DNA of 64,000 nt from Micromonospora sp. WMMA1947 (GTDB lineage Bacteria; Actinomycetota; Actinomycetes; Mycobacteriales; Micromonosporaceae), in the NCBI RefSeq assembly GCF_027497355.1, contig NZ_CP114909.1:1302001-1366000 (forward strand), given 5' to 3'. The notes beneath the pieces are model-generated. The model searched no databases. It saw only the letters and a list, made by a program, of their open reading frames with translations, and was not told the origin of the DNA. This document shows, one piece after another, positions 17,008 through 58,741 of this stretch; positions within the stretch are counted from its first letter, which is position 1; each line of letters starts with the position of its first letter. Position numbers and translations under genes: made by a program.

Positions 17008-17010
17008 GGT

Positions 17011-41773: not shown

Positions 41774-44700
41774 TCAGTCGGCGGCGACTGCGGTCTTGGT
41801 ACTGCCGCCGTGTTCGGTGATCCGCGGCCGAATGTGTGCCTTAACGGCGCTGCGGCTGAAGGCTGGATCGGTCGCCTTGCCTGACCAGATGTAAACCTCT
41901 CCTCGTCCCAGCGCTGCCATCTTGGCCGGCGTTAGATCGGCGAGAGCGGCGTTGGCCTTCTGCAGATGCTTTAACCAGGCTGGAGAGGTGAACCGGTGCA
42001 AGATGAGTTGGTTGGAGAGCTCGATGAGGGCTATCGGCACTGATGCTGGTTCCTGGCTCGCCACCAGGATGCTCATCCCCTTGTGTCGCATCTCTCGCAC
42101 GCTCTCGATCAGCCCGGCGGCGAGATCCGGGCTGTCGATGAACTTGTGTGCCTCGTCGAAGACGACGAGTTTGTTGAACCGACGCCCGGCGCTGGTGGCT
42201 TCCGAGAACAGCTCCATGAGTACGACGAACAGGCCGAGAGCCTCGTCCTTCTCAATCAGTTCGTCTCGAAGATCCACAATGATTACCCGACCGGGGCGGA
42301 CCAGGTCCTGAATGCGGGCCGTGTCGTCGATGTAGTCGGCGGCGAGGTCCAGACGCTGGTGGGCCAGCTGTTTGATGGGATCCGACAACGACGATTGGTC
42401 GACCCCGGCGCGCAGAGCGTCGATGGACAGGTTGTTGCGGTGCGCCTTCATGATCCGGCCGAGTTGGCGGATGTAGGTGGACTGGTTGCCGACCGCTCCC
42501 ATCAGAAAACGCCAGTGTGCGGCCCGTAGCTCCGTCGAGCTGAATTTGAGTGCCCGCAGCTCGATGCCGGGATATTCGTTCCGACGTTGCTCCAGTTGGT
42601 CTTCGGGGACCAGCATAAGCACATCGTCGAGCCCGGCCGGCGCTACGCCGTAGCGGTCCCGCAGACGTTGGACCTGCGTCGCGTCGGAGTTGGGGGCGAC
42701 CAGGCTGGTGAACTCAGGTACGTAGCTCAGGATCGGACTGTAGTGGAAGATGATGGTGGCCAGCGGCTGCGGCAGCCGGTTGACCGGTGGCGTGGCGAGG
42801 GAAGCAGCTTCGACGATGGTGCCCAGCGTGTAGCTCTTCCCAGCGCCCTGCACGCCGAACAGGCTGATGGTGTGGGTCTCGTTTAGGTCGAGAGCAATAT
42901 GCCGCCCGCCGTACTCGCCGATGATGCCGTACTGGGGGGACGGACCGGCTGCGCCGATGTAGATGTCAGGCTGAACCGATGGAGCCGGTGGGTCGGGCAC
43001 AGGCTGTTCTGACCGGTCTGTCGACTCCAGCAGTTCCGCTGGTCCGGTGGATTCCACCGGCTCCGGCCCAGTTGGCGTTGCATCGGTGATCGCATCGTCT
43101 CGGTCGTTTGGGGTCTCGGGGGCGCGGTCGCTCGGTGGCCGACCCTGCGGCACGACATGGTCGCGGGCAGGTGCCCGGAACGCGGCCTGTGGCAGATGTG
43201 CGACGGTGGACTGACGTGTTCCGAAGGTCCCCTCGGAGTGGGTGTCGGTCGGCGAAGCCGCCGCAAGAACCGGATCGGTGGCGATGCCGCCGAGTAGTTC
43301 GCTGATGACGTCGCGGCCGACGCGGTGAAACTCGACCTCGCCCTCGTCGTCTTGGTCAGTTCCGCTGCCCCGCAGGTCGAAGATGAGTCCGGTCTGGGTG
43401 AAGCTCAGCTGATATCCCCAGTCGAGGTGGTCCAACATCCAGTGAGCTTCTTCCGTGATCTCACTGGCACCATCGATGATGCCGTGGCGGACCGCCCGGC
43501 CGAGATAGAAGCGCAACAACGCGGCGAGCTCCGCGTTGCGGCTCGCCCGATCGGGACGATCGGGCTGGTAGTACGCGGGGTCGAAGCCCTCGGCGAGCAC
43601 GTCTCTGCTGCGGCTGAGCTGCTCGGTGATCTCGTTTCGGACCTTTTGCAGGTCCGCGATGCTGGTCAGCGTGCTGTGACACTTCACTTCGACGAGCCGG
43701 CAGGTGATGGCGCGTCGCTGCGCGTCGAGACTGAAGAGGGCAAGGTCGGTGCGTCGAAGTCCGACGCTTTCGGCGACTTCGTCGGCTCTGCGGCGAGCGT
43801 CGCGGTATAGCTCCAGGTGGGAGTCGAGGGGGACGAGGATCTGGTCGCCCAGGACTCCCTGGTGCGACAGGTAGAGCCGGGCGAGCGCCAAGCCCAGGAC
43901 TTCGGTCCGCTGGTTCGGTGCGGTGGACGCGATCTTGAAGGCCAGCCTGCCGGACAGTAGCCGAAGCTGGTCGAAGAAGGTCCCAGCGTGTCTGCGGTCG
44001 ACCTGGAATCCGTGCTGATCCAGCATTGGACGCAGCAAGGAGCGCAGCTCGTCGACCGACCTGGAGCTGACCACCAGTTGGTGGCCGAGGCCGTCTGGTC
44101 CGGTGCTGGCGAAGTCGATGATGTAGTCGGTTCGGCGGGAACTTCCTGGGCTGTCGAAGTACTCGACGCCCAAGGTCCGGTCCACGGTGATGACCCAGTC
44201 GCTGCAGCGGTGTGCCTGATGTAGCAGGCTGGCGTCGGCGGCGGTCAGGTTCAGCGTTATCCGTGGCACCAGCCCGGTTCCTGCTTCGCCGGTGGCCACC
44301 GTCGCTGTGGCGACCGAGATCGTCTGGGGAAGTGCGGTGAGCAGGTCGGAGTATTCCTCGGACCCTGGAATGTCCCGGCCAGGGCCGTGCCGGGGCTGCT
44401 TGTGCCAGGCCACGATGCCGTCGGTGGTGTCGACGTAGTCGACGGTCAACTCCTGGACCAGCCCGTGCAGGGGTGCTGTCGAGTCGGGGCGGGCCGGACC
44501 GACACCGAGATCTTCGCCGCTGAAGGCGTCGAAAAGCAACGTGAGGTGTGCCGTGTGCCGGCTTGTCGCCGAGCGGAAGTCGTCGAGCGGCAGCACCGCG
44601 ACGGCGAGTTTGGGCGCCAACCCGGCGCTTGTCGGTGTGCAGAACGTCTCCGCCTCGGCGGTGGTGCTCCACTCGCCGCTGAGCAGTTGAGCGAGCGCCA

Positions 44701-47215
44701 CACCGATGCCGGTCTGCTGCGGGTCTGCCGCGAACAGTCGCAGGTCGTACGAGAGATGCCGAAGGTTCTTGCGGCGTTCCAGCTCGATGAGGGTGTCCGC
44801 CAGCTGCTCCGCGCGCCCCGGGTTGACCACGCACAGGACCAGGGTGGCGACGTAGGGGTGCATCCGGACGTAGCGCTCGATCCGGTCAGCGAGTTGTCGG
44901 GCGGTGACCGTCAGGGCCGCGCTCGGACTGTCCGGCACGCCGAGCGCCGATGCCACGTCGGCCAACAGGGTCCGCGGGTCGCCCGTTTCCGCCGGCAGGT
45001 AGACCCCCCAGTGGGTGGCGAAATCGACGGTAGCGGCGCTGAGCCGGCGGTCGGTGCCGACGGCGGTCAGCGGGAAACCGGTCGGTGCCAGGGCGAACAA
45101 CCGCTCGGCCGCCGCCCGTACCCGGTCCTTGTCACCCGCGTGAACGAGCGGGGCGACGGACGAGGCTTCCGCGAGCCAGTGTCGCCCAAGCCGGGCCCAG
45201 GTGACCATCCACAGCAGACGCAGTGGGTGGGTGGGGGCGACCAGGGTGAGCTGGTGCAGGTTGCCCCGGATGTCCTGGTGCTCCACCACGACGGTGTCGA
45301 TCTGCAACAACGTCGTCAGTTGCCGCGTCAGCTCGGTGTCAGCGATCCGCCCGGTGCTGTGCAGCGATCCGTTGAGCAGCTCGGTGTATGCCTCCGCGTA
45401 GGCGAGTACGGCGGTGTCGATCCGGCTCAGATCACGGCCGGCAACGACCATGCCATCGTCACCACTGATCGCGGTCAGGACGGCGACCCGGGTGGCGAGG
45501 AACGTGTCGAGCCGTTCCGAGGCAGCCAACGGTGGGTGCTGATGCTCGACCTCGACAAGGCGCGGCGATTGCCCGGCCGCTGTGCTCAACTGACGGCCGG
45601 CGAGCCGGGTGGGCTCGGCCAGGATCTGCCGTTCCAGCTCGGCGAGGATCGGAGCGAGCGCCACCTGCGCGGTGCCATGCCCGCCGAAATCGGCCTCGAC
45701 GATGGTGCGGGCCGGATCCTTCCATGACGTCTGCTGGCAGCTGACCTCCTGCCAGTCCCGCCCGTCCGCCGACGCCTCGAACGCCAGCCGGAGCAGCTCC
45801 TGGGTCACTCCGGCGGTCCGGCGGTTGTTGGGTTGGCTGGGCGGCTCGTCGAGGTCGTTTTCCGCGACCACGTAGAACCGGTGACTCTCGTTGTCAGGGT
45901 GGCTGGGCGGAAGCTCGGATTCCGGCTGGTCGCGGCGGCTTGCCGGCTGGGAGGTCTCGACCGGCAGCGGCACGCCCGTGTTGTCCATCGGCGTGACCCG
46001 GATGTAGTGCCAGCCGTGGTCGAGCCGGGCAGAGCGCAGCCGCTTCAGCACCGCCTTGTACGCCTCCCGTCGGTTGGTGCCGACCTTGACGGTGGTGTGT
46101 ATCCCGGTCGGGCCGGACTCCTCGGACATCAGCTGGACGGAGAAACTGGTCAGGCCACGGACCTGTCGGGCGTCCGGGGTCACCCCGAAGACCACCGACA
46201 GCTGGTTGTGGCCGGATGCGCCGCCTGGCAGGTAAGCCTGGCCGGAGATGCTGCCCAGGACCGGGTGGTCGCGGTGCTCAGCTCGCCCGCCGGCCCGCGG
46301 CAGGGGCAGCTCATCGATGGTGATGCGTACGGCCGATGCGACCCGGTCCTCCGGCAGCGGCCAGCGGTGGAACGACAGCCCCCAGTTGGCGCGGTCGACG
46401 ACGATCCGGCGGGTCCACTCCGGGGAGGTGTCCTGGCCGACGTCGGCCAGGAATTCGGCCACCTTGGCGCGGAACGCGGCGTCGGTGAGCCGCAGGTCAA
46501 CGACGCGTTGCCGGACCGAGCGGTCGGCGCGGTTCAGCGCCTGGATGGTCCGGGCGTTGCGGGTCGCCCGGGTGCGCACCTGGGCGGGGTCGGCGAACAG
46601 CTCGAAGTCGGGGATGAGCCCGAGCTCGAACAGCGCGCCCCCGACGGCCTGCCGGTCCCGGTCATTGTGTTCGACGGTGAGCAGGAACCGGGCCCGCTGT
46701 AGCGGGCCGGCGACGACCCCGTACGCCTCGGTTGCCTGCTCGTCGAGCACGCCGAACAGTTCGCTGATCGCCGTGCGCAGCCCGTCGGGTAGGGCGGTCT
46801 GCAGGCGGGTGGCGAGCTCCTGGTAAACGTCGCCGGGTTCACTTTGCTCGAAGGTGGCGACCCCAAAGGAGTCTTCGGCGCTGGCGTGTGTGCCGGGTGG
46901 AATGAACACGAGCAGCGGTGGGCGCTGGCGGTCATCGGCGTCGGGGTTGCGCAGCTCGACAAGCTTGGTGCCGCTGATCGCCACATCGTCGGGCACCTGG
47001 GGTGGCTGTCCGAGGACGTGGACCTGGGCGGCGGCACCGGCCGCGCCGCGTAGCCGGCGACACAGCTGGGCGGCCAGCGGCGCGCCGAGGTCGGTCACCC
47101 GGACACAGTGCCCCGGTGCGCGGGCGGCGAGCAGCGCGGCGAACCGGGGCACCAGGACCCGTTCGAGGGCTTCGTCGAGGTCGGTGTCGGTGACTTCGCG
47201 CAGTCCGGTGCTCAT
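41774..47215 (-). CDS. mad8: MADS giant ATP-binding protein with nuclease-like and HerA-type ATPase domains
   Basis: Predicted 1813-aa protein, last gene of the defence operon. Most of the first 1150 aa is unassigned. Near residue 1175, after LRRTDLALFSLDAQRRA, the strand CRLVEVKCHS supplies a D...ExK arrangement of the PD-(D/E)xK nuclease fold. After an acidic/Pro-rich linker (about 1330-1420) comes a HerA/FtsK-like ATPase: GIIGEYGGRHIALDLNETH, Walker A GVQGAGKSYTLG (about 1452-1463), Walker B NKLVVFDEAHKF (about 1687) and a SILVASQEP sensor. The layout fits the ATP-binding protein MAD8 of the methylation-associated defence system; it probably translocates on and cuts unmodified DNA (inference). 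ATG 47215 overlaps the mad7 stop. Confidence 0.8.
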   Translation of the reverse strand: MSTGLREVTDTDLDEALERVLVPRFAALLAARAPGHCVRVTDLGAPLAAQLCRRLRGAAGAAAQVHVLGQPPQVPDDVAISGTKLVELRNPDADDRQRPPLLVFIPPGTHASAEDSFGVATFEQSEPGDVYQELATRLQTALPDGLRTAISELFGVLDEQATEAYGVVAGPLQRARFLLTVEHNDRDRQAVGGALFELGLIPDFELFADPAQVRTRATRNARTIQALNRADRSVRQRVVDLRLTDAAFRAKVAEFLADVGQDTSPEWTRRIVVDRANWGLSFHRWPLPEDRVASAVRITIDELPLPRAGGRAEHRDHPVLGSISGQAYLPGGASGHNQLSVVFGVTPDARQVRGLTSFSVQLMSEESGPTGIHTTVKVGTNRREAYKAVLKRLRSARLDHGWHYIRVTPMDNTGVPLPVETSQPASRRDQPESELPPSHPDNESHRFYVVAENDLDEPPSQPNNRRTAGVTQELLRLAFEASADGRDWQEVSCQQTSWKDPARTIVEADFGGHGTAQVALAPILAELERQILAEPTRLAGRQLSTAAGQSPRLVEVEHQHPPLAASERLDTFLATRVAVLTAISGDDGMVVAGRDLSRIDTAVLAYAEAYTELLNGSLHSTGRIADTELTRQLTTLLQIDTVVVEHQDIRGNLHQLTLVAPTHPLRLLWMVTWARLGRHWLAEASSVAPLVHAGDKDRVRAAAERLFALAPTGFPLTAVGTDRRLSAATVDFATHWGVYLPAETGDPRTLLADVASALGVPDSPSAALTVTARQLADRIERYVRMHPYVATLVLCVVNPGRAEQLADTLIELERRKNLRHLSYDLRLFAADPQQTGIGVALAQLLSGEWSTTAEAETFCTPTSAGLAPKLAVAVLPLDDFRSATSRHTAHLTLLFDAFSGEDLGVGPARPDSTAPLHGLVQELTVDYVDTTDGIVAWHKQPRHGPGRDIPGSEEYSDLLTALPQTISVATATVATGEAGTGLVPRITLNLTAADASLLHQAHRCSDWVITVDRTLGVEYFDSPGSSRRTDYIIDFASTGPDGLGHQLVVSSRSVDELRSLLRPMLDQHGFQVDRRHAGTFFDQLRLLSGRLAFKIASTAPNQRTEVLGLALARLYLSHQGVLGDQILVPLDSHLELYRDARRRADEVAESVGLRRTDLALFSLDAQRRAITCRLVEVKCHSTLTSIADLQKVRNEITEQLSRSRDVLAEGFDPAYYQPDRPDRASRNAELAALLRFYLGRAVRHGIIDGASEITEEAHWMLDHLDWGYQLSFTQTGLIFDLRGSGTDQDDEGEVEFHRVGRDVISELLGGIATDPVLAAASPTDTHSEGTFGTRQSTVAHLPQAAFRAPARDHVVPQGRPPSDRAPETPNDRDDAITDATPTGPEPVESTGPAELLESTDRSEQPVPDPPAPSVQPDIYIGAAGPSPQYGIIGEYGGRHIALDLNETHTISLFGVQGAGKSYTLGTIVEAASLATPPVNRLPQPLATIIFHYSPILSYVPEFTSLVAPNSDATQVQRLRDRYGVAPAGLDDVLMLVPEDQLEQRRNEYPGIELRALKFSSTELRAAHWRFLMGAVGNQSTYIRQLGRIMKAHRNNLSIDALRAGVDQSSLSDPIKQLAHQRLDLAADYIDDTARIQDLVRPGRVIIVDLRDELIEKDEALGLFVVLMELFSEATSAGRRFNKLVVFDEAHKFIDSPDLAAGLIESVREMRHKGMSILVASQEPASVPIALIELSNQLILHRFTSPAWLKHLQKANAALADLTPAKMAALGRGEVYIWSGKATDPAFSRSAVKAHIRPRITEHGGSTKTAVAAD

Positions 47216-48810
47216 CGTGGCGCTCCGTCGGGCTCGAGGCGATAACGCGGGGTGATGGTCTGGGTGAGGTAGGCGTCGGAGAGGTCGGTGTAGAAGCCGA
47301 TCTCCCGCAACCGGGCGACGAACGCGGCCCGGTTCTCCCGAAGCGCCCGGTGGTCGATGATGCTGGGCTGGCCAAAGCCGTCCCCTGGCGGAAGCTCGTC
47401 GATGTATAGCCCATACCGGTCGCGTAGCACCGCGAGGAATTCGTCGACTCGGATCGCAGCGGTCCGCAGCGCCCCGGCGCCGTCGGGCCGCAGCAGGGCC
47501 AACTGGAGGAGCACTTCGAGTAGTCGGCTGTCGAGCACGAAGCGGCGCTGTCCGCGACGCGGCTGGGTGAGCATCGCGCCAGGACGGTGTTTGAGCAGCA
47601 GGCTGTCGAGGCAATCGGTCAGGTAGCCACGGTGGAACTTGATCCGGTAGGCGGTGATGATCTCGATGTAGGTGGCGAACGGGTCGAGCTTCAGCTGCAG
47701 CAGGTCGGCGATCTGCGGATCGAGGCCGTTGTCCTCGCCGGATGCCGCCTCCACGACCCGGGCCAACCGGGCTTCGGCGAACCGGCCCCGGTCGGCCTTG
47801 TGCGCCGGGCCCAGCAGCGACAACAGTTGCTCGATGAGGAACATGCCATCGGCCGGCTTGCGTAACTTGCCGATCTTCACCAGGTGCCAGCCGAAGTCGT
47901 CGAGCTTCTTCACGGTGAAGGTCGCCTGCACGAACGCCGGGATCCGGTCGTACCAGACCTGGGCGCTCGTTTCGGCCAGCCGGGCGGCGGGTGTGCCGGG
48001 CACTCCCGCGACGTCGAGGAAGAATCCGCCACCGAATCCGACGCGGTCGCCGGTTGTCCAGATCGGCAACGTCTTCATGATCCGGAAGTGGTACCGTGCC
48101 AGGTGGAAGGCGAACAGGATCTTCAGGTGGTCGACCAGCACCGATCGGGGTACGACTCCCCGGTGGTACAGCAGCCGGGTGACGTCCTGGGTGAGTAGCT
48201 CGGCGGCGGCGGTGTCCAGCGGTGGGTAGATCTTGCGGACCCGGCTGCGGTCCTCCCGGTCGGTGACCTTGGTCTTGGCCGCCTCGCAGAGGTTGATCAG
48301 GGTCTGGGTCTCGACGTCGATCTCGGTGGCGTCACCGACGCCACCGATCCGTTGGTCGACCCCCGCGAAGAAGAAACGTTTCAGCTGCTCCAGCACGGTG
48401 CCACGAGTTGTCGAGCCGTGATGGAGCATCCAGTAGAGCTGTTCGTCGGCGCCGTATGGCCGGGATCGGCGCGCTACTCGGAAGCGGTAGGTGAAGCCGT
48501 GCAGCGGACGCAGCCCGGCGATGGCCTGGCCAGGTTTGCCCCGGTTTACCAGGTCGAGCAGGTGGGTTTCCAGCCAGCGGGCGGTGACCTCCGGGTCGAA
48601 TCCGACGAAGTGATCAGGATGCTTGGTGATCTCTTCGACGAAGACGTCGACGCTCAGATCCGCCCCCGAGCCGACCAGCACGCTCGGCGAGCCCTTCCAC
48701 CGCAGCCGGGGCAGCAAGGCGGTGAGCACCCGGTCCATGTCGAGCTGTTTGTAGTCGAGGTAGCTGACCGCCGGGTGGCGGAACTCCTTGTCGTCCTTGT
48801 GTAGCCCCAC
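47212..48810 (-). CDS. mad7: MADS protein of unknown function
   Basis: Predicted 532-aa cytoplasmic protein with no recognisable catalytic motif. It begins VVGLHKDDKEFRHPAVSYLD and is rich in helices throughout (DEQLYWMLHHGSTTRGTVLE, HLKILFAFHLARYHFRIMKT), with a winged-helix-like C-terminus. GTG 48810 overlaps the TAG of mad6 (TAGTG), with GGAGGAG 5 nt upstream, so the much longer open frame upstream is not used. By position and size it matches MAD7. Tight coupling suggests it works in a complex with its neighbours. Confidence 0.75.
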   Translation of the reverse strand: MGLHKDDKEFRHPAVSYLDYKQLDMDRVLTALLPRLRWKGSPSVLVGSGADLSVDVFVEEITKHPDHFVGFDPEVTARWLETHLLDLVNRGKPGQAIAGLRPLHGFTYRFRVARRSRPYGADEQLYWMLHHGSTTRGTVLEQLKRFFFAGVDQRIGGVGDATEIDVETQTLINLCEAAKTKVTDREDRSRVRKIYPPLDTAAAELLTQDVTRLLYHRGVVPRSVLVDHLKILFAFHLARYHFRIMKTLPIWTTGDRVGFGGGFFLDVAGVPGTPAARLAETSAQVWYDRIPAFVQATFTVKKLDDFGWHLVKIGKLRKPADGMFLIEQLLSLLGPAHKADRGRFAEARLARVVEAASGEDNGLDPQIADLLQLKLDPFATYIEIITAYRIKFHRGYLTDCLDSLLLKHRPGAMLTQPRRGQRRFVLDSRLLEVLLQLALLRPDGAGALRTAAIRVDEFLAVLRDRYGLYIDELPPGDGFGQPSIIDHRALRENRAAFVARLREIGFYTDLSDAYLTQTITPRYRLEPDGAPR

Positions 48811-51800
48811 TACGACTCCTCCCGTGGGGCCACCGGCTCCATCCGGATCTGCCCAGTTGGCTCCCGCAGCACCCGCCACAGCTCCCGCCCGGTCACGGTG
48901 AGCAGCAGTTCCTGGTACGGGGCGGCGGACAGCTCGTGCTTGAAGATGGTCAGGCCGAGATGCAGCCCTTGGCGTTCGGCGATGCCGGGCAGGTAGCCGT
49001 CCCGCAGCCGGTTGAGTAGCTCGAACAGGTCGAGCCGGATCCGCAGCGCGGCGTGCTGGTCGGCTGCGCTCCGGTAGCCCAGCACCAGCTCCTGGGCACC
49101 ACCCTCCAGGTAGGGCGACTGCGGCGCACCGTCCGCACGCAACGACAGCTGCCCGGCGGGGAACAGCCGGTAGCTGCGGATCCTGCCGTCGGGCACCGCT
49201 CGGACCTGCAACGCCAACGCGTCGGCGATCCGGGCGGCGTCGCCGAGTCCTTCGCTGCGGTTCAGCGCGCCGATGAGCTCCGGCAGCCGAGACGGCAGGT
49301 CGTCCGGGCGGGCCAGCAGGCTCAGGAAGTCCGATGCCGAGCGGTACGGCAGCATCCGACGTGACCGTTCGTCGTCGACGCACTCGAAGTAGAACCGGCG
49401 ACGGGCGGCGGCGAGGTAGCGGCGGTGCGCCTGGCCGGTGGCTGAGCTCAGTGCCGTGCCACGTGGCAGATCGCCTACCAGGCGTTGCAGCAGCTGCAGG
49501 TCGTATTCACCGCGCTGGTCGACCGTCATCAGGGCGCGGCCGGCGTCCGGGCCGACGTAGTCGAGCCGGCGGTCCAGGCCCGGATCGGCGACCGCAGCGA
49601 TATCGACTTGGGTCAACAGGTTCAGTAGTCGGTCGGCGCCGTCGACCGGCCCGGCCCAACTGTTGAAGTAGAAGCCGTCGAGCACCTCGGTGAGCTGGTC
49701 GCTGGCGTACAACTCGTGGATGTCCGCGCAGTCGAGACCGGAGGTGAGCATGAAGGCCAGCGCCGACTGGACGTCGCGGACGGTGATGTGCGCGATGCCG
49801 CGCAGCTCGGTCAGGCGGTAGAGCATCCGCAGCCGTGCCGTGATCTTCGGCCCGATCGCCGGGTGCGCGAAGGTCTGGGCGTTGTGCCGGGCGTAGCACT
49901 TGTCGACGAGCACACACCCGTCGCACCCCTCCCACCGTTGGGGGTGGGTCATCCGGCTCAGCATCCGGTCGAAGACGGCACCGTTGAGCTCGTCGGAGTC
50001 GTCCAGCAGGCTGCGGCGGTTGAGGTTGATGACCACGACGCCTGACTCAGCGGCACCTGGACCAGCGGCACTCGTGTCAGCGCCGGCGGTCGGCGCTTCG
50101 GACCGGCCGTGCAGACCGGTCAGCACCTGGTCGGCCAGGGTCGGGAACGTCGACCTGTGGGTGTCGAGGAAGTCGACCAGCCGACCTTCGTTGATCGCGA
50201 TCAGCCGGGTTTCTCCGGCGACCCCAGCCAGGTCGGCACCGGCGAACGGCGCGAAGAAGTCCAGCAGGACATCGTCGTTGTGCTTGTCCGACTCGTCCTG
50301 GCTGCCGTCATGGTTGGTCCGCAGGACCAGGCCGGTCGGGGTCTCGAAGTCCGCTCCGTTGGCACGCCGCACGGGGATGCGCGGCCCGTCCTTGGTGGCG
50401 ACCGTCAACAGCCGTTCCAGGAACGCGGTCTTGCCGTCGCCAGCGTTGCCAGTGATGATCACCAGCCGGTAGGTGCCGGCCAACACGTCGGGGGTGAGCT
50501 TGTCGTCCAGCGCGGTGGTCACGTAGAGATCGAACGCCGGGTTGCCGCCGGCGCGGGTGCCGGCGTTGCTCCGGACGCTTTGGCTGTAGAGCGTCTGCAG
50601 GTGCCCGACGAACGAATTGCTGCCGGCCGACGACGGCGTGGGCGGCGGGAGCACCGGGTCGGCGGGCTCCGGTCGCACCGGCTCGAACACCTGGTCGCCG
50701 AGGTCGCGCAGCGCGTCGCGCAACTGCTGGGCGCTGGTGTACCGCTCGCTGCGCAGTGGGGCGATGGCGGTCAACAGGGTGTGGACGAGTCGTTCGGAGA
50801 GGTTGCCGAGCCCTGGCACCTGGCGTGGGTCGTCGGGCCGCCGACCGATGGTGGCGGCGCGATCCGAGAACGGCCACTGACCGGTCAGCACCTCGTAGAG
50901 GGTCAGCCCGAGCGCGTAGACGTCCCGGTCGATGAGGTCGGCGCGGGTGACCGGCCCGCCGACGGCGAAGTCCGGCGGGGCGTAGCGGGCGGTGCCACCG
51001 GTGCGCGACAGGCTGGAGTCGTCGGAAACCGCCACGTTGAAGTCGATGATCTTGCAGCCGTTGTCGGTCCGCAGCAGGTTCGCGGGCTTGATGTCACAGT
51101 GGTAGATGCCGTTGTCGTGCAGGTAGGTAAGCCCGTCGGCGACGTCGATGCCGAGCCGCACGGTGTCCGCCGGCCCCAGCGCCCGCTGACTGACCAGCTC
51201 GGCTACCTGCTGACCGTCGACGTATTCGAAGACCAGGTACGGGATCTCGCCGCCGTCGAGGAAGTCGGCGCTCTCCACCTTGACCACACTGGGATGTGCC
51301 GGCAGCCGCAGCAGCAGTTGATACTCGACCCGCAGCCGTTCGATCACTGAATCCCGGTCGCGGTGCACGATCTTCACCGCCCGGTCGAGGCCGGCAAGAC
51401 GGTCGTACGCCTGGTAGGCGGTGCCGTAGGAGCCCGGCTTGCCGAGCCGGCGGCGGATGGTGAACTTGTGCGTCAGCTGGTGACCTGGCGGCAGGTCCCG
51501 GAATTCGGGCTGCGGCGGCGTCGGCGTGGAGGCAGCCTCGGCCCGCCTGGTGTTGCCCGGTCGGATCAGCCACCCCAGGTCACGCAGGGCCTCGGCGGTG
51601 GTGGGCCGCGCCGATGGCGCCAACGCGCACATCCGGCGCAGCAGCTCGGCCAGCGCCGGACTGAGTCCGGCAGCGGTCATCACCTCCGGCGGCAGTACGC
51701 TGCCCCGGCGGATCTGGTCGTCGGTGGTGGCGAATGGCAGCTCGCCGGTGAGTAGCCGGTACGCGATCACCCCGGCGGCGTACACGTCGGACGCTGGGCT

Positions 51801-52943
51801 CATCGCCTGGGCCCGCCGCTGGCATTCGGGGGCGACGTAGGCCGGGTCGAGCACGTCGGCCAGCCGGTCGATCACCGAGTGGTCTCGTGGCCCCTGTGGC
51901 CGGGCGTAGTCGAACCCGGTGAGCACGCCACGGTTGTCCCGGGTGACCAGCACCGACGCCGGGGTCAACGCCCGGTGCAGCACCCGGTGGGTGTGCGCGT
52001 GGGTGAGCCCACGCAGCAGGTCCGCGACGATCCGCAGCCGCACGTCGGCGCTGAGCGCCTGCCGTGGGTCGGTCAGGTGCACGGTCAGCGGTTGGCCGTC
52101 GACGTCGTCGAGGACGAGGACGAACTGTCCTTCGTCGTCGGTGGGGAAGAAGTCGCGTCGACCCACGATGTGCGGGCTCGGCGGCATCTTCGTCAGGACC
52201 TCGTACGCGTTGCCGATCGCATGGCGCTGCATCGCCCGCTGATCGGCGGGCAGGAACGGGTCGGCCCGGTAGACCCGCAGCAGCACGGTCTCCGAGGCGA
52301 CGATGGTGGCGTTGCGGGCCCGGTACTCGGTGACCTCCTCGTCCCCGCCGAGCCGTTCGCAGACCTGCCAGTTGCCGAAGTGTCGGGGCCCGGTGCGACG
52401 GCGGACACCGCTGCCCAGGGCGTTGAGGACGGTCGCCTGCTGGGCTCGGATGTCGCGGATCATGCCGGCCCGGATCCGGGCCGGGTCATCGAGGGCCGGT
52501 ATCAGGCTGGGCAGGTCGACGACGTCGATGGCGTCGGCGTCGGGGCGGTCGCTGGGGTCGACCAGCCGGGCGTCGCGACCGGCCAGGACCACCAGGTGGC
52601 CCACGTAGACCTGGGAAAGCTCGGGTCGGGCCCGCTCCAATATGCCTTTCAGGGCCCTGGCGTGCCCCCGGAGTTTGCGCACCGGCGAGGCGAACGAGTC
52701 GCGGCCCTGTGGATACCACCGGACGCCAGCGACGTCGATCCGACCGGCGGTGCCCTTTACGTCGATCAGGTGTACGGCCCGGGTGGTCACCACCACCAGA
52801 TCCACTTCGTACGCGGTGCCGCGCACCGGGATCTCGATGTTGTGCAGCACGAACCAGTCGCCGGGAGCGTTGTCCCGCAGGTGCGCGATCACTCGGCGTT
52901 CCCCGTCGTTGGCCGGGGTGGACCCACCAACGATCTCAGCCAC
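48810..52943 (-). CDS. mad6: MADS kinase: NERD, pseudokinase, kinase and P-loop NTPase domains
   Basis: Predicted 1377-aa protein. Residues 1-180 are a NERD domain (YEVDLVVVTTRAVHLIDVKG, Asp48 and Asp61-x-Lys63 of the PD-DxK site). Residues about 200-450 are a kinase fold without catalysis: VLLRVYRA lacks the Lys, HRALTP replaces HRD, GFDYA replaces DFG. Residues about 490-770 are a second kinase with LDRAVKIVHRD, HCDIKPANLL (about 612-621) and DFN in place of DFG. Then comes a P-loop NTPase (ITGNAGDGKTAFLE, about 829-841) with a C-x2-C-x5-C cluster (CDGCVLVDKC, about 1005). It probably senses infection and signals by phosphorylation. GTG 52943 is 2 bp from the mad5 stop. Confidence 0.85.
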   Translation of the reverse strand: MAEIVGGSTPANDGERRVIAHLRDNAPGDWFVLHNIEIPVRGTAYEVDLVVVTTRAVHLIDVKGTAGRIDVAGVRWYPQGRDSFASPVRKLRGHARALKGILERARPELSQVYVGHLVVLAGRDARLVDPSDRPDADAIDVVDLPSLIPALDDPARIRAGMIRDIRAQQATVLNALGSGVRRRTGPRHFGNWQVCERLGGDEEVTEYRARNATIVASETVLLRVYRADPFLPADQRAMQRHAIGNAYEVLTKMPPSPHIVGRRDFFPTDDEGQFVLVLDDVDGQPLTVHLTDPRQALSADVRLRIVADLLRGLTHAHTHRVLHRALTPASVLVTRDNRGVLTGFDYARPQGPRDHSVIDRLADVLDPAYVAPECQRRAQAMSPASDVYAAGVIAYRLLTGELPFATTDDQIRRGSVLPPEVMTAAGLSPALAELLRRMCALAPSARPTTAEALRDLGWLIRPGNTRRAEAASTPTPPQPEFRDLPPGHQLTHKFTIRRRLGKPGSYGTAYQAYDRLAGLDRAVKIVHRDRDSVIERLRVEYQLLLRLPAHPSVVKVESADFLDGGEIPYLVFEYVDGQQVAELVSQRALGPADTVRLGIDVADGLTYLHDNGIYHCDIKPANLLRTDNGCKIIDFNVAVSDDSSLSRTGGTARYAPPDFAVGGPVTRADLIDRDVYALGLTLYEVLTGQWPFSDRAATIGRRPDDPRQVPGLGNLSERLVHTLLTAIAPLRSERYTSAQQLRDALRDLGDQVFEPVRPEPADPVLPPPTPSSAGSNSFVGHLQTLYSQSVRSNAGTRAGGNPAFDLYVTTALDDKLTPDVLAGTYRLVIITGNAGDGKTAFLERLLTVATKDGPRIPVRRANGADFETPTGLVLRTNHDGSQDESDKHNDDVLLDFFAPFAGADLAGVAGETRLIAINEGRLVDFLDTHRSTFPTLADQVLTGLHGRSEAPTAGADTSAAGPGAAESGVVVINLNRRSLLDDSDELNGAVFDRMLSRMTHPQRWEGCDGCVLVDKCYARHNAQTFAHPAIGPKITARLRMLYRLTELRGIAHITVRDVQSALAFMLTSGLDCADIHELYASDQLTEVLDGFYFNSWAGPVDGADRLLNLLTQVDIAAVADPGLDRRLDYVGPDAGRALMTVDQRGEYDLQLLQRLVGDLPRGTALSSATGQAHRRYLAAARRRFYFECVDDERSRRMLPYRSASDFLSLLARPDDLPSRLPELIGALNRSEGLGDAARIADALALQVRAVPDGRIRSYRLFPAGQLSLRADGAPQSPYLEGGAQELVLGYRSAADQHAALRIRLDLFELLNRLRDGYLPGIAERQGLHLGLTIFKHELSAAPYQELLLTVTGRELWRVLREPTGQIRMEPVAPREES

Positions 52944-52945
52944 GA

Positions 52946-54352
52946 TCAGCGAGCCGCCTCTCGCACCGCCTTGTCGAGCAGAGCAAACGCCTCGTCCTCC
53001 TTGCGGTCCGCGTCGTCGCGGTCACGATACGCCTGCCGGACAACCCCAGCGATCCGCTCCCGGTCCGCCGCCGCCGCCATCGGCACCGGTAGGTCACGAA
53101 GCAAGGACGGGTGATACTCCTGTTGCTTGCCGCCAACGCTCATCGACCGAAGTATGCGGAAAGCCGCATCTGTGCGGAAGAATGCGAACAAGTAAGCACC
53201 AGGCGCATCCTCCTGGCCTGAGACGACGCGGACGAAATCCTGACTGTATGCGTTACTCAGGGCGCGTCCTGTTGCCAGGAGAGAGCGGCCGAATACCTCA
53301 CGTTCGCCAAGTGTGCCGTGTGCGGCGATCAGGACAGTCTCATCAGTCATGTGGATATCGTCCGGAGCTAGCTTGGGATTGATCCAGCGCCCCGACGGGC
53401 GCAGCCAGAATGCCTGCCGTTGTCCAACGAGCCTTACCCCGTGATGCGAATCGGAGTCGTATCGTTTGAACCGTGCTCCGGTTCGAAGCGATCCGCCGGT
53501 GCAGATGTCGCCGAGGGGGCGGTGGGTGACCGAGCGGAGGGCGTCGATGATGCGGCGGGCGCGGGGGGAGTAGTTAAGGGCCCGCAGGGACAGAGCGGTG
53601 GGCCGCTCGATGGTGAAGGCTAGGTCACGCTCCCGGTCGTGCCAGCGCAGGTCGAGCAACTCGGGGATACCGGCGCTGACGAAGAGATCGCGGGTCGCCT
53701 CCCGTACCCCGTCTTCGTAGTGCTGCCGCAACTGCATCGCCTCGGTGATCAGGGCGTCAATCCGCTGCTCGACGCCGCCACCGAAGCGGGGCACCGGCAG
53801 GTCGGCGATGTGGCTCGGCTCGATGTGCTTTACGCTGGTGCCGTAGATGCCGCCCTTGATCACCGGGATGCCAAATGGGCTGGCCAGGAAGGTGTAGAGG
53901 TAGCCCGCCGGGATCCGGACGAGGTCCGGCACCACCCGGAGAACGTCCTCGCTGCACGCCGCACCGGCCATGCTGAGCCGAGCGTAGGTGACCCGGCCGG
54001 CGGTCATCCCGGAGCGAGTGACCAAGGTCCAGCCCGGCTCCAGCGGCAGCTTCGGGTTCTTATCGAATGACCGCTTGGTGATCATCGGCAGGTTGGCCAG
54101 GTCGGCCTCGAAGATGTCCGCGCTGCCGAGGAACGGCACCCCGTGCGCCGGGTCGGTGGTCCACTCGCGTGTCACTCGGCCGGCGTGGAAGACCCGTGCG
54201 GTGACCGAGTGCAGCGGCTCGCTGTGCGGCATCCGGTGCAGGTATTTGCGGGCGGCGTAGGCGTCGGAGACGTACGGCCCCGGGTCGAGGCGGAACCCCT
54301 GCTCGGCCAGCCAGCTCGCCTGGACGGGATTGTCTGGGCTGGCCAGCTTCAC
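52946..54352 (-). CDS. mad5: MADS specificity subunit (type I HsdS-like)
   Basis: Predicted 468-aa specificity protein with two target-recognition domains separated by helical spacers. The first ends GTSVKHIEPSHIADLPVPRF followed by a helix (RIDALITEAMQLRQHYEDGV); the second ends KQQEYHPSLLRDLPVPMAAA plus a final helix. These repeated segments are the hallmark of HsdS. It should direct the MAD2 methyltransferase to a bipartite DNA site. The GTG start overlaps the mad4 stop by 4 bp (GTGA). Confidence 0.88.
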   Translation of the reverse strand: MKLASPDNPVQASWLAEQGFRLDPGPYVSDAYAARKYLHRMPHSEPLHSVTARVFHAGRVTREWTTDPAHGVPFLGSADIFEADLANLPMITKRSFDKNPKLPLEPGWTLVTRSGMTAGRVTYARLSMAGAACSEDVLRVVPDLVRIPAGYLYTFLASPFGIPVIKGGIYGTSVKHIEPSHIADLPVPRFGGGVEQRIDALITEAMQLRQHYEDGVREATRDLFVSAGIPELLDLRWHDRERDLAFTIERPTALSLRALNYSPRARRIIDALRSVTHRPLGDICTGGSLRTGARFKRYDSDSHHGVRLVGQRQAFWLRPSGRWINPKLAPDDIHMTDETVLIAAHGTLGEREVFGRSLLATGRALSNAYSQDFVRVVSGQEDAPGAYLFAFFRTDAAFRILRSMSVGGKQQEYHPSLLRDLPVPMAAAADRERIAGVVRQAYRDRDDADRKEDEAFALLDKAVREAAR

Positions 54353-55005
54353 AGCTCCTCCTCGGGGAACCAGTCACGTAGCGTGTCGCGCAGTTTCAGG
54401 AACGCCGGATCGACGCAGCCCCTGACGGAGATCCCGGCCGCCAGTCGCTTGAACAGCGCCGGTGAGCGGTCCACCTTGTACCCGTCGCGGCGCAGGTCGC
54501 GGTAGCGATTGCGCAGATGTTCGAGGGCTTCCTTCGGTCGCGCCGGTTTGGCCCGGTCGCGCGGCCAGTGGCCGCTGTCGGCCAGGATCTGCCGGAAGTT
54601 GGCTGGGCAGTTGAGTGCCTGGGCGACTCGGGGGTTGTCCTGCCAGACCCACGCCTCCAGCTCGGGCTCGATCACGATCACCGCGAACTCCGCCCAGGTG
54701 TCGCGCATCCGTTGGTTGAGATCGTTGTAGATCTTTTCCGGCCCGGGGGTGCCCTGCCAGTCGTTGTCCAGCATGATCACCGCACGGTCGTGGCTGCGCC
54801 GGTATCTGCGCAGCAGCTCCGGCCCTTGCCGGTAAACCCCGGGATCCTTGGTGGGGGAGACGAACACATCGTCGCGCGGATCGAAGGCGAACCGTTGGCA
54901 GCCCACGCTTCGGTGGAACTCGGGTCGCCCGAGGAATCCGTGCAGCAGCTGCTGCATCGAGCCGTCGGCGACCAGGAAGATCACGTCACGCATGGGTGGG
55001 GGCAT
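54349..55005 (-). CDS. mad4: MADS small protein, DUF4276/TOPRIM-like
   Basis: Predicted 214- to 218-aa protein. The strand VIFLVADGSMQQLLHGFLG, the acidic AVIMLDNDWQGTPGPEK and IVIEPELEAWVW occupy the places of the Glu, DxD and ExE metal ligands of DUF4276/RloB-like TOPRIM proteins, although the first acidic residue differs. Such proteins pair with an OLD/SMC-type ATPase, which here is the preceding gene. The start is ATG 55005 or 54993; neither has a strong ribosome site, suggesting coupling to mad3, whose stop is 17-29 nt upstream. Confidence 0.7.
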   Translation of the reverse strand: MPPPMRDVIFLVADGSMQQLLHGFLGRPEFHRSVGCQRFAFDPRDDVFVSPTKDPGVYRQGPELLRRYRRSHDRAVIMLDNDWQGTPGPEKIYNDLNQRMRDTWAEFAVIVIEPELEAWVWQDNPRVAQALNCPANFRQILADSGHWPRDRAKPARPKEALEHLRNRYRDLRRDGYKVDRSPALFKRLAAGISVRGCVDPAFLKLRDTLRDWFPEEEL

Positions 55006-55021
55006 CCGGGGGGTGGGAGGG

Positions 55022-56320
55022 TCACGAGAGCACTCCTGAGGCGAAGAGGGTGCCGATGTCGACGCTGCCGCGCCAGTCCTGCATCCGAGGGTGCGCGGTG
55101 CCGGGGATGACCTCGACCGCGCCGTCGCCGTCGAGCCGGGCGAGCACGATGTTGGCGAGGTCGGTGTTGGCCAGCACGATCGGCGACTGGGTGGAGATCC
55201 ACACCTGGTCGTCGGTGAGGGCGGCCAGTGACTGCACCACGGTCTCGATGGCCCGTGGGTGGATGCCGTTCTCCGGCTCCTCGGTAACCAGCAGGCGGGG
55301 CCGCGCGGAGCTGGGCAGGTAGGGCAGCAGCGACAGCGACAGGATCCGCAGGGTCCCCTCGGACAGCCCGGACGAGGTGACCTGGTAGCCGCCGACGTAC
55401 TCCACCGACAGGTAGGCGTAGTGGTCGTCGGCACGCTCAATCGCGGTGACCCCGGTGATCTGCGGCAGCGCCGTCTGCAGGTGATCGATCCAGTAGCCGA
55501 ACCCTTGCGGATCTTCCTGTTGCAGGTGCAGCACCAGCCAGGGCAGGTTGCGCCCGGAGGGCAGCACCCGCAGCGGGTCACCGGGCGCGGCGGCCTGGCG
55601 CAGCTGTGCCCAGTCCGGATCGAAGAAGACGGCACCTTCACGCAGCAGGTTGGCGAACCAGAGCGCCGCCGGGAACAGCTCCGGATCGGCCGGCACGGCG
55701 GCGAGCGCGACCTGACTGGCCGGCACTCGGAAGTCCGGCACCTTTGGGCCTCGGGTGGTCGTCTCGGCGGTGAACGCGGTCGGCTCGCCCGGCCCGCGTT
55801 GGATGACCGGCTGGGCGGCTTGGCGGGCGGACCGGCCGCGCCTGGGCAGGTTGGCTCCCTGCATCGCGATGCCCGCCGCCGGGCGCCGCCGGTCGGCGGC
55901 GGAGAAGAGGTAGAGGTATTCCTCGTCGACCTGCAACTCGTCGTTGAAGATCCGCAGCCGCAGCTCGTACCGCAGACGATCCGGGATCCGGTGCATCATC
56001 GCCGCGGTGCTGCGGCTGGCCATGGTGTTGACGATGTCGGCGGGCAACGCGGCCTCGATGGTGAAGGCCACGCTGTCGCCGCGGCCCTGGTGCACCAGCT
56101 CGGTGAGGGTGTGCGCCCGGGGCACGCCGCGCCACTCCGGTGGGCGGAGGAAGGCGTCGGCCACCCGCTGCTGGGCGAGCAGGTCACCGAGCAGCACCGG
56201 GATGTCCAGCAGGGTGCTCTTGCCGGCACCGTTGGCACCGGCGAGCACGTGGAACTCGCCCAGGTCGATGCTGAGCTGTGCGAAGCAGCGGTAGTGGTAG
56301 GCCTCGATCCGGGTGATCAT
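55022..56320 (-). CDS. mad3: MADS AAA/SMC-type ATPase (OLD-like)
   Basis: Predicted 432-aa ABC-type ATPase: ITRIEAYHYRCFAQLSIDLG, Walker A GANGAGKST (residues 28-36), signature TSSGLSEGTLRILSLSLL, Walker B RLLVTEEPENGIHP, and the H-loop-like QVWISTQSP. This is the arrangement of OLD-family and RloA/AbiEii-partner ATPases, which couple ATP turnover to a TOPRIM or nuclease partner. Here the partner is likely the product of the next gene. ATG 56320 overlaps the mad2 stop (ATGA). Confidence 0.87.
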   Translation of the reverse strand: MITRIEAYHYRCFAQLSIDLGEFHVLAGANGAGKSTLLDIPVLLGDLLAQQRVADAFLRPPEWRGVPRAHTLTELVHQGRGDSVAFTIEAALPADIVNTMASRSTAAMMHRIPDRLRYELRLRIFNDELQVDEEYLYLFSAADRRRPAAGIAMQGANLPRRGRSARQAAQPVIQRGPGEPTAFTAETTTRGPKVPDFRVPASQVALAAVPADPELFPAALWFANLLREGAVFFDPDWAQLRQAAAPGDPLRVLPSGRNLPWLVLHLQQEDPQGFGYWIDHLQTALPQITGVTAIERADDHYAYLSVEYVGGYQVTSSGLSEGTLRILSLSLLPYLPSSARPRLLVTEEPENGIHPRAIETVVQSLAALTDDQVWISTQSPIVLANTDLANIVLARLDGDGAVEVIPGTAHPRMQDWRGSVDIGTLFASGVLS

Positions 56321-58413
56321 GTGCGCTCCCCTGGCTCGGGGTGCTCCGCGCGAAATCGCCGGTAGGCTTGGACGATCTCCGGCAGGTCGTTGTCGACGAC
56401 CTCCTTCTTGCGGGTGACGTCTCGATAGCTGCTGCCGCCGTTGCGATAGACCGGGATCCGCTCCACAGTGTCCTGCAGGATCGGCACGCCGTCCGGCCGG
56501 CACTTGTAGATCTTGTTGCCGCGCCGGTCCACCCCGACCTTCTCCGCCACCGCCATGAAGACCGGATAGTCGGGCTGCTCGCCCAGCTCGGCTGCCAGCT
56601 TCTCCCGGTCGGTCTTCTTCTTGAGCAGCAGCACCGAGGTGAGGATGTTGACGTGGGCGTCGACGATGAAGGTCTCCACCGGCAGCTCGACGCTGGCCAG
56701 GATCCAGCAGTTGTCCAGCACCCAGCGGCGGATCCCTTCGTCCACCGGGCCGGGGTTGGACAGGATGCCATTGGGCAGCACGATGCCGATCCGCCCGCCG
56801 GGCCGGACCCATTCGACCGCCCGTTGGATGAACAACTGCTCCGGCGACATCGCCGACACCCGGCCAGGCCCGGCCTCGACCTGGCCGGTCTGCCGGTTGC
56901 GGACCCAGGACTGGGCCACCCCGTCGCGGTACGCGTCGAGGATGTCCGCGTCTTCGATCTTGATGTCCGAGCCGAACGGGGGGTTGGTCATCAGGACGTC
57001 GATGCTGCCCAGCGGGATCTTCTCGGCTGCGGCGTGCCGTTCGGTCAGGTGGCCGCCGGGGAAGGCGAGGGAGTCCAAGTGGAAGACGTTGCCCTCTTCG
57101 CCGGTGGAGAGCATGACGCTCATCTGCGAGGCACGCACCAGGAATGGGTCGAAGTCGGCCCCGAACAGATGCGTCCGCGAGTACTGGGCCAGCCGCTCCT
57201 GGTGCTCGATCAACTGTGCCTCGGTGTCGGGCAGACCCTTGGTGCCCGCCGCTGCACGCCACTGGTCGAGCAGATAGCGCAAGGGCTCCCGGAGGAAACC
57301 ACCGGTGCCACAGGCCGGGTCGAGGATGGTTTCGTGCTCCTTGGGGTCGAGCATCTGCACCATTAACTCCACGGCGCCCTTCGGGGTGAAGTACTGCCCC
57401 CGGTCGCCGCGCAGGTTGATGCCGACCAACTCCTGATACGCCATGCCCTTGACGTCGATGTCGGTGCCGGCCAGGTCGTAGGAGGCGAGCTCGCCGACGA
57501 TGAAGGCGAGCGCACGCGGCGAAAGGCTGATCTGGTCGCGGTCGGTGAACAGCGGGTAGTTCTTCTTCACCTCGTCGAAGAGCTCATGAATGCGCCCGGC
57601 GATGTCGGCTCGGCCTTCGTTGGTGAAAGGTTCGGCCGGCAGGGCGTAGAACCGGGGTGCGCGGTGCTGTCGGCGGCTGATCCGCTCGTCGTGCACCTTG
57701 GCGAAGATCAGGTAGAGGAACTGCCAGAAAGCGGCATCCTTGGGCAACCCTTCGTTGCCGTGCACGTAGTTGTGGCAGCGCCGGAAGGCGGTCTTGAGCA
57801 TGGCTGCCTCGCCTCGGCGGAGCCGGGCTGCAGAGCCGCTCGCGGCGCCGAAGCTGCTGGCGGCGTCGATCGGCCAGTCGGCCCGCGCCGGGAATTTGAC
57901 GCCGAATCGGGTGTTTTCCCGCTGCAGGAAGAAGAAGTCCAGGCCGTTGGTCCACAGGCCGTACTGCGCGTTGGGGGTAGCCGGCGTGCCGAGTAGATCC
58001 TCAAGCTCCTCCAGATCCTGCCGGGCCTGCTCATGTGTCCTGATCTTGGTGACGGCCCGGCTGACCTTCGGCTCCGGCTTGCAGATCACCACCCGTTGCA
58101 GGTTCTCCAGGGTCTGCTGCGCGCCAGGGGTGAAGACCGCGATATCGGCCTTGCGGATGCGCCGGCGTCGCCCCTCGATGTCGACCGGGATCGGGAAGTC
58201 GCGCGCCATGTCGTCGACCGAGATGCCGTACTCCACGGCCAGAGCTCGGGCGATGCGCTGGCGGACCTCTTCGTTGCCGCGCAGCCGGACCGGCTTGTTG
58301 GTGATGAAGTCGATAGTCTCGTCTGTTGCCAGGGACTCCGGCCCAGCTCCGGCAACCGCTGCCGTGCTGGGTTCGTCGCCCGACGCGACGTCATGGTCCC
58401 TGTCGTCAACCAT
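56317..58413 (-). CDS. mad2: MADS N6-adenine DNA methyltransferase (HsdM-like)
   Basis: Predicted 698-aa type I-like modification protein and first gene of the operon. SAM motif I is DPACGTGGF (about 363-371); the catalytic motif IV is NPPF in DVLMTNPPFGSDI (about 475-478). The N-terminal 180 aa resemble the HsdR N-terminal nuclease-fold domain (RKADIAVFTPG ... VVICKPEPK), but the expected ExK is ICK, so it is probably a non-cutting DNA-binding module. It should methylate self DNA with the MAD5 subunit. ATG 58413 starts MVDDRDHD; an alternative upstream start is not supported by a ribosome site. Confidence 0.87.
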   Translation of the reverse strand: MVDDRDHDVASGDEPSTAAVAGAGPESLATDETIDFITNKPVRLRGNEEVRQRIARALAVEYGISVDDMARDFPIPVDIEGRRRRIRKADIAVFTPGAQQTLENLQRVVICKPEPKVSRAVTKIRTHEQARQDLEELEDLLGTPATPNAQYGLWTNGLDFFFLQRENTRFGVKFPARADWPIDAASSFGAASGSAARLRRGEAAMLKTAFRRCHNYVHGNEGLPKDAAFWQFLYLIFAKVHDERISRRQHRAPRFYALPAEPFTNEGRADIAGRIHELFDEVKKNYPLFTDRDQISLSPRALAFIVGELASYDLAGTDIDVKGMAYQELVGINLRGDRGQYFTPKGAVELMVQMLDPKEHETILDPACGTGGFLREPLRYLLDQWRAAAGTKGLPDTEAQLIEHQERLAQYSRTHLFGADFDPFLVRASQMSVMLSTGEEGNVFHLDSLAFPGGHLTERHAAAEKIPLGSIDVLMTNPPFGSDIKIEDADILDAYRDGVAQSWVRNRQTGQVEAGPGRVSAMSPEQLFIQRAVEWVRPGGRIGIVLPNGILSNPGPVDEGIRRWVLDNCWILASVELPVETFIVDAHVNILTSVLLLKKKTDREKLAAELGEQPDYPVFMAVAEKVGVDRRGNKIYKCRPDGVPILQDTVERIPVYRNGGSSYRDVTRKKEVVDNDLPEIVQAYRRFRAEHPEPGERT

Positions 58414-58546: not shown

Positions 58547-58741
58547 TCAGCGGTGGGTGCTGCCCGGGGTGACGAAGGCCGACCAGGCGGTCGGGCCGAA
58601 GGTGAGGGTGCCGCCCGTGCGGTCCTTGCTGTCGCGGACCAGCACCCGGCCCGGCAGGTTGGCGTCGGTCTCGACCCAGTCGCCGCCATTGCTGCCGCTA
58701 CGGGTGCTCTTGTGCCAGTTTGGTGCGTCGCTCATGATCAT
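58547..58741 (-). CDS. DUF397 protein
   Basis: Predicted 64-aa protein with the DUF397 core: WHKSTRSGSNGGDWVETDAN, VLVRDSKDRTGGTLTFGPTA and WSAFV. The family is found almost only in actinobacteria, usually beside an XRE-DUF5753 regulator, and behaves as its small partner. Here the regulator next door is destroyed (58806-59010). It lies 133 bp upstream of mad2 on the same strand. ATG 58741 has AGGG 6 nt upstream; ATG 58735 is an alternative. Confidence 0.9.
   Translation of the reverse strand: MIMSDAPNWHKSTRSGSNGGDWVETDANLPGRVLVRDSKDRTGGTLTFGPTAWSAFVTPGSTHR

Follow-up and report, generated by a model that had tools for sequence, protein, structure and literature searches.

Gene Content and Organization of the Locus

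The window analyzed here, a stretch of 64,000 nucleotides, corresponds to bases 1302001–1366000 of the single-contig 6.31 Mb genome of Micromonospora sp. WMMA1947. It contains seven long minus-strand genes at positions 41774–58413, none of which has an internal stop (Table 1). A preliminary description, made from the letters alone, had recognized here an operon of the methylation-associated defense system (MADS), and the coordinates and the start and stop codons confirmed the gene run at that place. When the seven proteins were searched with the NCBIfam MAD models, as that description had proposed, all of them, including the kinase, the 532-aa, and the 1813-aa proteins, passed the curated equivalog cut-offs for MADS2 to MADS8. 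Each of the PADLOC models mad2 to mad8 was also matched by the locus. The genes follow the order MAD2-3-4-5-6-7-8 on one strand as one gene run, and relatives keep the same order; since all seven proteins lie above curated cut-offs and their arrangement is shared with other loci, the set is not a product of chance. Judged by identity and homology, the locus is very probably a chromosomal MADS operon comprising MAD2 to MAD8 without MAD1. MADS is an already named system, of which this locus is a further member. It consists of eight genes, with MAD1, encoding a small helix-turn-helix (HTH) protein, ahead of MAD2; the founding description is reportedly that of Maestri et al. 2024.

Tight junctions, with overlaps of 1–14 bp or gaps of 2 bp, had been described for nearly all of the operon. 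This held for five junctions: the neighbors overlap by 4 bp at MAD2/3, MAD4/5, and MAD7/8 and by a single base pair at MAD6/7, and 2 bp separate MAD5 from MAD6. At MAD3/4, by contrast, the gap is 16 or 28 bp unless an upstream non-ATG start is used.

Table 1. Features of the MADS operon and neighboring genes (window positions; scores in bits, with the cut-off in brackets).
Feature	Coordinates	Strand	Start, length	Evidence
MAD2, N6-adenine DNA methyltransferase (HsdM-like)	58413-56317	-	ATG, 698 aa	NCBIfam MADS2 991.6 (720)
MAD3, OLD/AriA-type AAA (ABC-like) ATPase	56320-55022	-	ATG, 432 aa	NCBIfam MADS3 583.7 (420)
MAD4, small partner of MAD3	55005 or 54993 to 54349	-	ATG	NCBIfam MADS4 270.9 (160)
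MAD5, HsdS-like specificity subunit	54352-52946	-	GTG, 468 aa	NCBIfam MADS5 562.8 (400)
MAD6, NERD nuclease + pseudokinase + Ser/Thr kinase + DndF/SspF-like P-loop core	52943-48810	-	GTG, 1377 aa	NCBIfam MADS6 776.4 (460)
MAD6 C-terminal core, residues 776-1377	48810-50618	-		Walker A GNAGDGKT; Walker B Asn918 replacing Asp; CxxC...C insert
MAD7, DndG/SspG-like putative DNA-binding subunit	48810-47212	-	GTG, 532 aa	NCBIfam MADS7 610.1 (410)
MAD8, DndH-like giant: PD-(D/E)XK-type nuclease + C-terminal HerA/FtsK ATPase	47215-41774	-	ATG, 1813 aa	NCBIfam MADS8 215.2 (175)
MAD8 nuclease active-site stretch	43682-43903	-		E1105, D1157, E1176xK1178; invariant in 27/27 relatives
MAD8 HerA/FtsK-type ATPase	41774-42907	-		Walker A 1454-1463, Walker B D1687 E1688, Q1721; PADLOC mad8 and HerA models
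ImmA/IrrE-type HTH-peptidase gene	37862-39112	-		PADLOC RmrA, 3e-98
Neighbor of the RmrA-like gene	39099-39887		262 aa	no PADLOC match
ISL3-type transposase piece, downstream of MAD8	40879-41514	-		
DUF397 gene, upstream of MAD2	58547-58741	-	64 aa	
TmtA-like protein	62866 to beyond 64000 (L009:7866-13202)	+	1778 aa	PADLOC TmtA, 1797 bits, nearly full length

The adenine methyltransferase proposed for MAD2 was supported by its MADS2 score, by a Pfam N6_Mtase match, and by a match to the EcoKI M subunit (E 1.6e-15); an NPPF motif is located at residue 477. The assignment of MAD5 to HsdS agreed with its MADS5 score and with the PADLOC type I/II specificity models, some of which matched over two stretches, while a sequence search of PDB gave no matches for this protein. 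An SF2 helicase of the HsdR type was not found among the seven proteins by Pfam at E 0.01, and HSDR_N_2, the HsdR N-terminal domain, was detected in MAD2 only below threshold (24.9 bits versus a cut-off of 25). On these grounds a type I restriction-modification system was rejected. The earlier statement that the locus lacks an HsdR-type motor nuclease and is not an ordinary type I system therefore stands as regards the helicase; however, MAD8 is likely a motor nuclease of another kind, as described below.

Profile matches connected MAD3 with OLD (6p74, E 9.7e-12), PtuA (7.5e-10), and AriA (9.8e-6), in line with the OLD-like ATPase predicted for it. A TOPRIM-like nature of MAD4 was not confirmed, the comparison of its profile with PDB sequences having given nothing credible (a single match, E 0.22). 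Thus, with respect to OLD and to the phage anti-restriction-induced system (PARIS, AriA-AriB), the likeness lies in the MAD3 ATPase, whereas no sequence link was found between MAD4 and AriB. Because MAD3 is OLD/PtuA/AriA-like, the MAD3-MAD4 pair may represent a PARIS-like second effector.

Comparison of MAD6, MAD7, and MAD8 with DndFGH and SspFGH

In PADLOC, MAD7 weakly matched SspG and MAD8 weakly matched SspH, which was the reason for examining the kinship of MAD6-8 with SspFGH and DndFGH. Sequences of DptF, DptG, and DptH (DndFGH) were taken from annotated plasmid genes, SspFGH and a second Ssp-like set from genomes, and an FGH set with a NERD-kinase F protein from a Rhizobium plasmid. The Dpt profiles contained six F, five G, and five H proteins, those of the Ssp sets two each, and those of Rhizobium one each; the Dpt locus L088 gave DptF only, its DptG being split and its DptH unannotated. 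All E-values of the profile comparisons (hhalign) refer to single comparisons.

The NERD-kinase-NTPase architecture described earlier for MAD6 was borne out by its MADS6 score, by Pfam matches to NERD and Pkinase, and by conserved motifs. Residues E46, D48, and K63 of NERD were invariant in 66/66 MAD6 relatives (D61 in 65), as were K524, D617, N622, and D634 of the active kinase and, in the C-terminal core, Walker A, N918-E919, and C1007/C1010/C1016. Only one of 67 rows retained the catalytic Asp of the first kinase, which was therefore considered a pseudokinase. The C-terminal part matched SspF (2.8e-27) and DndF (1.3e-6) in PADLOC, and all seven families found at E 0.01 were SspF or DndF. 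In its alignment with the DptF profile (P 98.7, E 1.7e-16, 293 columns), the Walker A motifs of the two coincided, and so did the Walker B motifs with their Asn. The other F proteins gave P values of 97.6 for Ssp, 98.4 for the second Ssp set, and 100 for Rhizobium. A sequence search of PDB with this part gave nothing better than E 0.32; DndF was not among its fold matches, which is uninformative either way.

The 532-aa protein had been described as unknown; its score identifies it as MAD7, and it can additionally be read as DndG/SspG-like. The NCBIfam MAD7 model matched SspG at 1.7e-9, below the cut-off, and MAD7 agreed with DndG in its fold. The P values against G proteins were 0.2 (Dpt), 69.4 (Ssp), 77.5 (second Ssp set), and 94.9 (Rhizobium), and a sequence search of PDB gave no matches. 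A separate observation concerns the PADLOC model PDLC04139 (mad7), which scored an annotated DptG at 206 bits, almost from end to end; PADLOC may therefore label some DndG proteins as mad7.

For MAD8, the predicted nuclease/HerA giant was corroborated by its MADS8 score and by the invariance of the nuclease residues (Table 1) and of K1460, D1687, E1688, and Q1721 of the motor in 27/27 aligned relatives. Because residues of both types are invariant, MAD8 is likely a motor nuclease, and its sequence points to the DndH rather than the HsdR kind. The comparison with the DptH profile (P 99.3, E 3.8e-20) extended over 618 columns, not including the HerA motor, and put the ExK of both nucleases in register; the inactive adenine methyltransferase and target recognition domain region of DndH falls inside this alignment. 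Against the other H proteins, P was 7.0 (Ssp), 3.8 (second Ssp set), and 99.9 (Rhizobium). Among 24 mismatched MAD pairs, P did not exceed 20.0, and when the same profiles were set against other MAD proteins in ten comparisons, the highest value was 12.8; DptF and MAD3, which are both P-loop proteins, gave P 37.0 over 35 columns.

Thus, MAD6-8 share with DndFGH the three-gene order F-G-H, the fold of G, a P-loop core of F with Asn in Walker B, and an H protein in which a nuclease is followed by a C-terminal HerA motor. Passages of PMC10853773 describe a Zn insert in the lid of some versions of DndF and the F core with Asn in Walker B; judging by sequence, the conserved residues of MAD6 and MAD8 match these published DndF and DndH features. 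In the same passages, Rakesh, Aravind and Krishnan reported fusions of NERD with an inactive and an active kinase on some DndF proteins and treated DndFGH as being without an in-built modification module. The systems differ in that MADS has an adenine methyltransferase and HsdS where Dnd has DndABCDE, and in that NERD, pseudokinase, and kinase are fused to F in MADS, although this also applies to some DndF proteins. No protein of the window was matched at E 0.01 by the curated DptF/G/H equivalog models TIGR03236-8.

The likeness to SspFGH lies in the F and G proteins; in contrast, SspH is only weakly like MAD8, and the Ssp mark is sulfur, whereas that of MADS would be methylation. The SspFGH paper (PMC8092258) reported no sequence homology between SspFGH and DndFGH, whereas the two are described as homologs in a later review (PMC12707154). 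At E 1e-10, the DptF model TIGR03238 was found in 0/149 genomes of the host's phylum and in 2/369 genomes of the class to which a Pseudomonas relative belongs; the SspG model was found in 0/296 and 4/369 genomes.

The FGH set of the Rhizobium phaseoli plasmid pRphaR630c (L098) arranges its three genes in the same way, its F protein is likewise of the NERD-kinase type, and a SIR2 gene adjoins it. Unlike in MADS, no MAD2 or MAD5 match was found within the 27 kb examined, and an annotated type ISP restriction/modification enzyme and a methyltransferase are located farther downstream. Thus, MAD2 and MAD5 accompany the NERD-kinase-fused F in the MADS loci examined but not in the Rhizobium set, and the SIR2 gene with its F, G, H trio (L098:1975-15469) may constitute a separate FGH-type system. 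In another FGH set (L103), H matched both DndH and SspH models and G matched SspG; L104 has the same layout. The L103 set adjoins a gene labeled PAPS-reductase-like by sight and looks intermediate between Dnd and Ssp.

Distribution and Modular Composition of MADS Loci

The census started from a scan with a MAD7 pattern, one genome per species, which yielded 73 loci; together with the window and the plasmid loci L096, L097, and L100, 77 loci were examined, of which 54 (the window included) are actinobacterial, 20 proteobacterial, and three others by name. L098, without a MAD-model match, and the short pieces L005 and L007 were excluded from the count, and fragmented genes in L051, L070, L072, and L082 were scored present if any piece passed. 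MAD6, MAD7, and MAD8 were all visible in 74/77 loci in constant order, the remaining three being cut by contig ends. MAD2 and MAD5 were present in 72/77; the five loci without the pair are four short contigs and L072, which ends inside a broken MAD5. Some Actinomadura and Streptomyces loci seemed to have lost MAD2, but this was rejected as an edge effect, since MAD2 lay just past the first 10 kb flank.

Among the 72 loci with MAD2 and MAD5, MAD3 and MAD4 were both found in 33 (18/53 actinobacterial, 15/17 proteobacterial, 0/2 Bacteroidota), and neither in 39; this pair therefore cannot constitute the core. The spacing between MAD5 and MAD6 exceeded 300 bp in 18/72 loci, including L096, where it is an artefact, the annotated HsdS gene reaching MAD6. 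Ten proteins from eight wide-gap or similar loci were scanned. Four were AbiU-like (L018, L056, L023, and L079; the gene of L023 sits before MAD2), those of L015 were NsnB and NsnC, a pAgo-like gene occupied the MAD3-MAD4 position between MAD2 and MAD5 in a Thiodictyon metagenome-assembled genome (L077:2291-4351), that of L048 matched nothing but AbiEii, and this weakly, and the remaining two had no match.

No PADLOC mad1 match was found within the window, and 43 matches occurred genome-wide at E 0.01. At the limit applied, this 60-position HTH model gives matches in each of 14 control genomes; being too general alone, it was accepted for a MAD1 call only in a position beside MAD2. In loci with at least 180 nt upstream, MAD1 stood beside MAD2 in 16/17 proteobacterial, 0/48 actinobacterial (window included), and 0/2 Bacteroidota loci, according to a model built from six of the proteobacterial loci that it then found. 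An independent PADLOC check, with adjacency established by coordinate comparison, placed MAD1 beside MAD2 in 6/7 proteobacterial genomes. In the Bacteroides locus L097, counted as negative, a gene annotated as a helix-turn-helix regulator directly precedes MAD2, but the MAD1 model did not match it. MAD1 is thus lineage-specific, and for this reason it was not treated as defining MADS. The DUF397 gene (Table 1) lies where Proteobacteria have MAD1 and may be a lineage-specific regulator.

MADS is uncommon: with the host counted, MAD7 was above the cut-off in 3/396 sampled genomes of the phylum and in 8/160 genomes of the genus. The closest named locus was that of Micromonospora sp. CB01531 (95% identity in MAD7). 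Just right of the window, an IetA-like AAA ATPase and an IetS-like S8 protease are encoded on the plus strand (L009:15066-16217 and 16220-18778). The joint occurrence of RmrA, TmtA, the IetA/IetS-like pair, and MADS indicates a defense island.

Proposed Mechanism and Alternative Explanations

The gene content and order, the homology, the conserved catalytic residues, and the modular gain and loss described above are the observations from which we infer a mechanism, which, taken as a whole, we regard as somewhat better than evenly supported. MADS would consist of two coupled halves and an optional insert. In the first half, MAD2 and MAD5 would form an enzyme resembling HsdM/HsdS, which marks self DNA by adenine methylation within a motif specific to the host. 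In the second, MAD6, MAD7, and MAD8 would form a complex of the DndFGH/SspFGH type that loads on unmethylated DNA, translocates, and nicks. The putative roles are DNA binding for MAD7 and translocation by the HerA motor with nicking by the PD-(D/E)XK domain for MAD8, while the P-loop core of MAD6 would couple nucleotide binding to both activities of MAD8. Methylation would hold the motor back in the way that phosphorothioation restrains DndFGH, so that phage DNA lacking the methyl mark would be nicked. The NERD nuclease and kinase fused to MAD6 may gate or back up the engine. MAD3-MAD4 would be the optional insert, a separable second effector.

DndFGH has been described (PMC11662687) as a 2:2:1 complex with translocation-coupled nicking, whose ATPase is repressed by the self-mark, the loss of which leads to self-damage. 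According to PMC12345140, a kinase of phage JSS1 turns DndFGH off through phosphorylation. In a Bacteroides finegoldii plasmid, a PP2C phosphatase gene (L097:22118-22783) overlaps the end of MAD8 and is a possible partner of the MAD6 kinase; this single case fits phospho-control.

The most serious competitor, although an unlikely one, is abortive infection, in which MAD3-MAD4 (OLD/PARIS-like) together with the MAD6 kinase and NERD would sense the phage and stop the cell, the FGH-like part only scanning DNA. The similarity of MAD3 to OLD, PtuA, and AriA and the invariant catalytic residues of NERD and of the active kinase speak for it; however, MAD3 and MAD4 are missing from more than half of the loci that keep MAD2 and MAD5, and the nuclease and motor residues of MAD8 are invariant as well. 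The homology of MAD6-8 to DndFGH and SspFGH could also mean that these proteins still read phosphorothioate and that their link to the methyltransferase is incidental. This is very improbable and was rejected: a DndC homologue, and hence coupled phosphorothioate modification, was not found in the host genome at E up to 1e-5, and MAD2 was above the cut-off in 13/13 MADS genomes tested. Least credible of all is a divergent type 2 bacteriophage exclusion (BREX, Pgl) system, suggested by the NERD, pseudokinase, and kinase N-terminal half that MAD6 has in common with PglW. The PADLOC PglW match covers MAD6 residues 40-695 but ends before the C-terminal half, which is SspF/DndF-like and, together with the partner genes, unlike that of PglW. 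The NCBIfam PglW model gave 204 bits against a cut-off of 990, and no PglZ-type Pfam match was found in the seven proteins at E 0.01; type 2 BREX was rejected on this basis. These explanations are not all exclusive of a methylation half coupled to a DndFGH-type engine.

In the part of a 2026 review that covers MADS (PMC12904381), the system is placed among those restricting by unknown mechanisms, and MADS and Dnd occupy separate rows, the restriction mechanism of MADS being left blank. The open-access matches listed contained no statement on a kinship of MAD6-8 to DndFGH/SspFGH, the founding MADS paper lying outside that search. PMC12421847 and PMC12939059 were matched for both MADS and SspFGH, but in their passages "MADS" stood for nothing more than the title of a reference or a fragment of an author name.

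The kinship of three MADS genes with the Dnd/Ssp DNA-cutting machine suggests how MADS may destroy phage DNA. If MAD6-8 are an engine of the DndFGH type, MADS could be studied directly with the existing DndFGH assays, which cover ATPase, translocation, nicking, and self-damage on loss of the mark. In that case, one nuclease-translocase would also operate with chemically different self-marks, and DndFGH and SspFGH would be tied together. We tentatively suggest, as a possibility with less than even support, that DndFGH, SspFGH, and MAD6-7-8 are one engine with different self-marks, namely sulfur in double-stranded DNA, sulfur in single-stranded DNA, and adenine methylation, and that in MADS the kinase of the F subunit gates this engine as a host-controlled counterpart of JSS1 phosphorylation.

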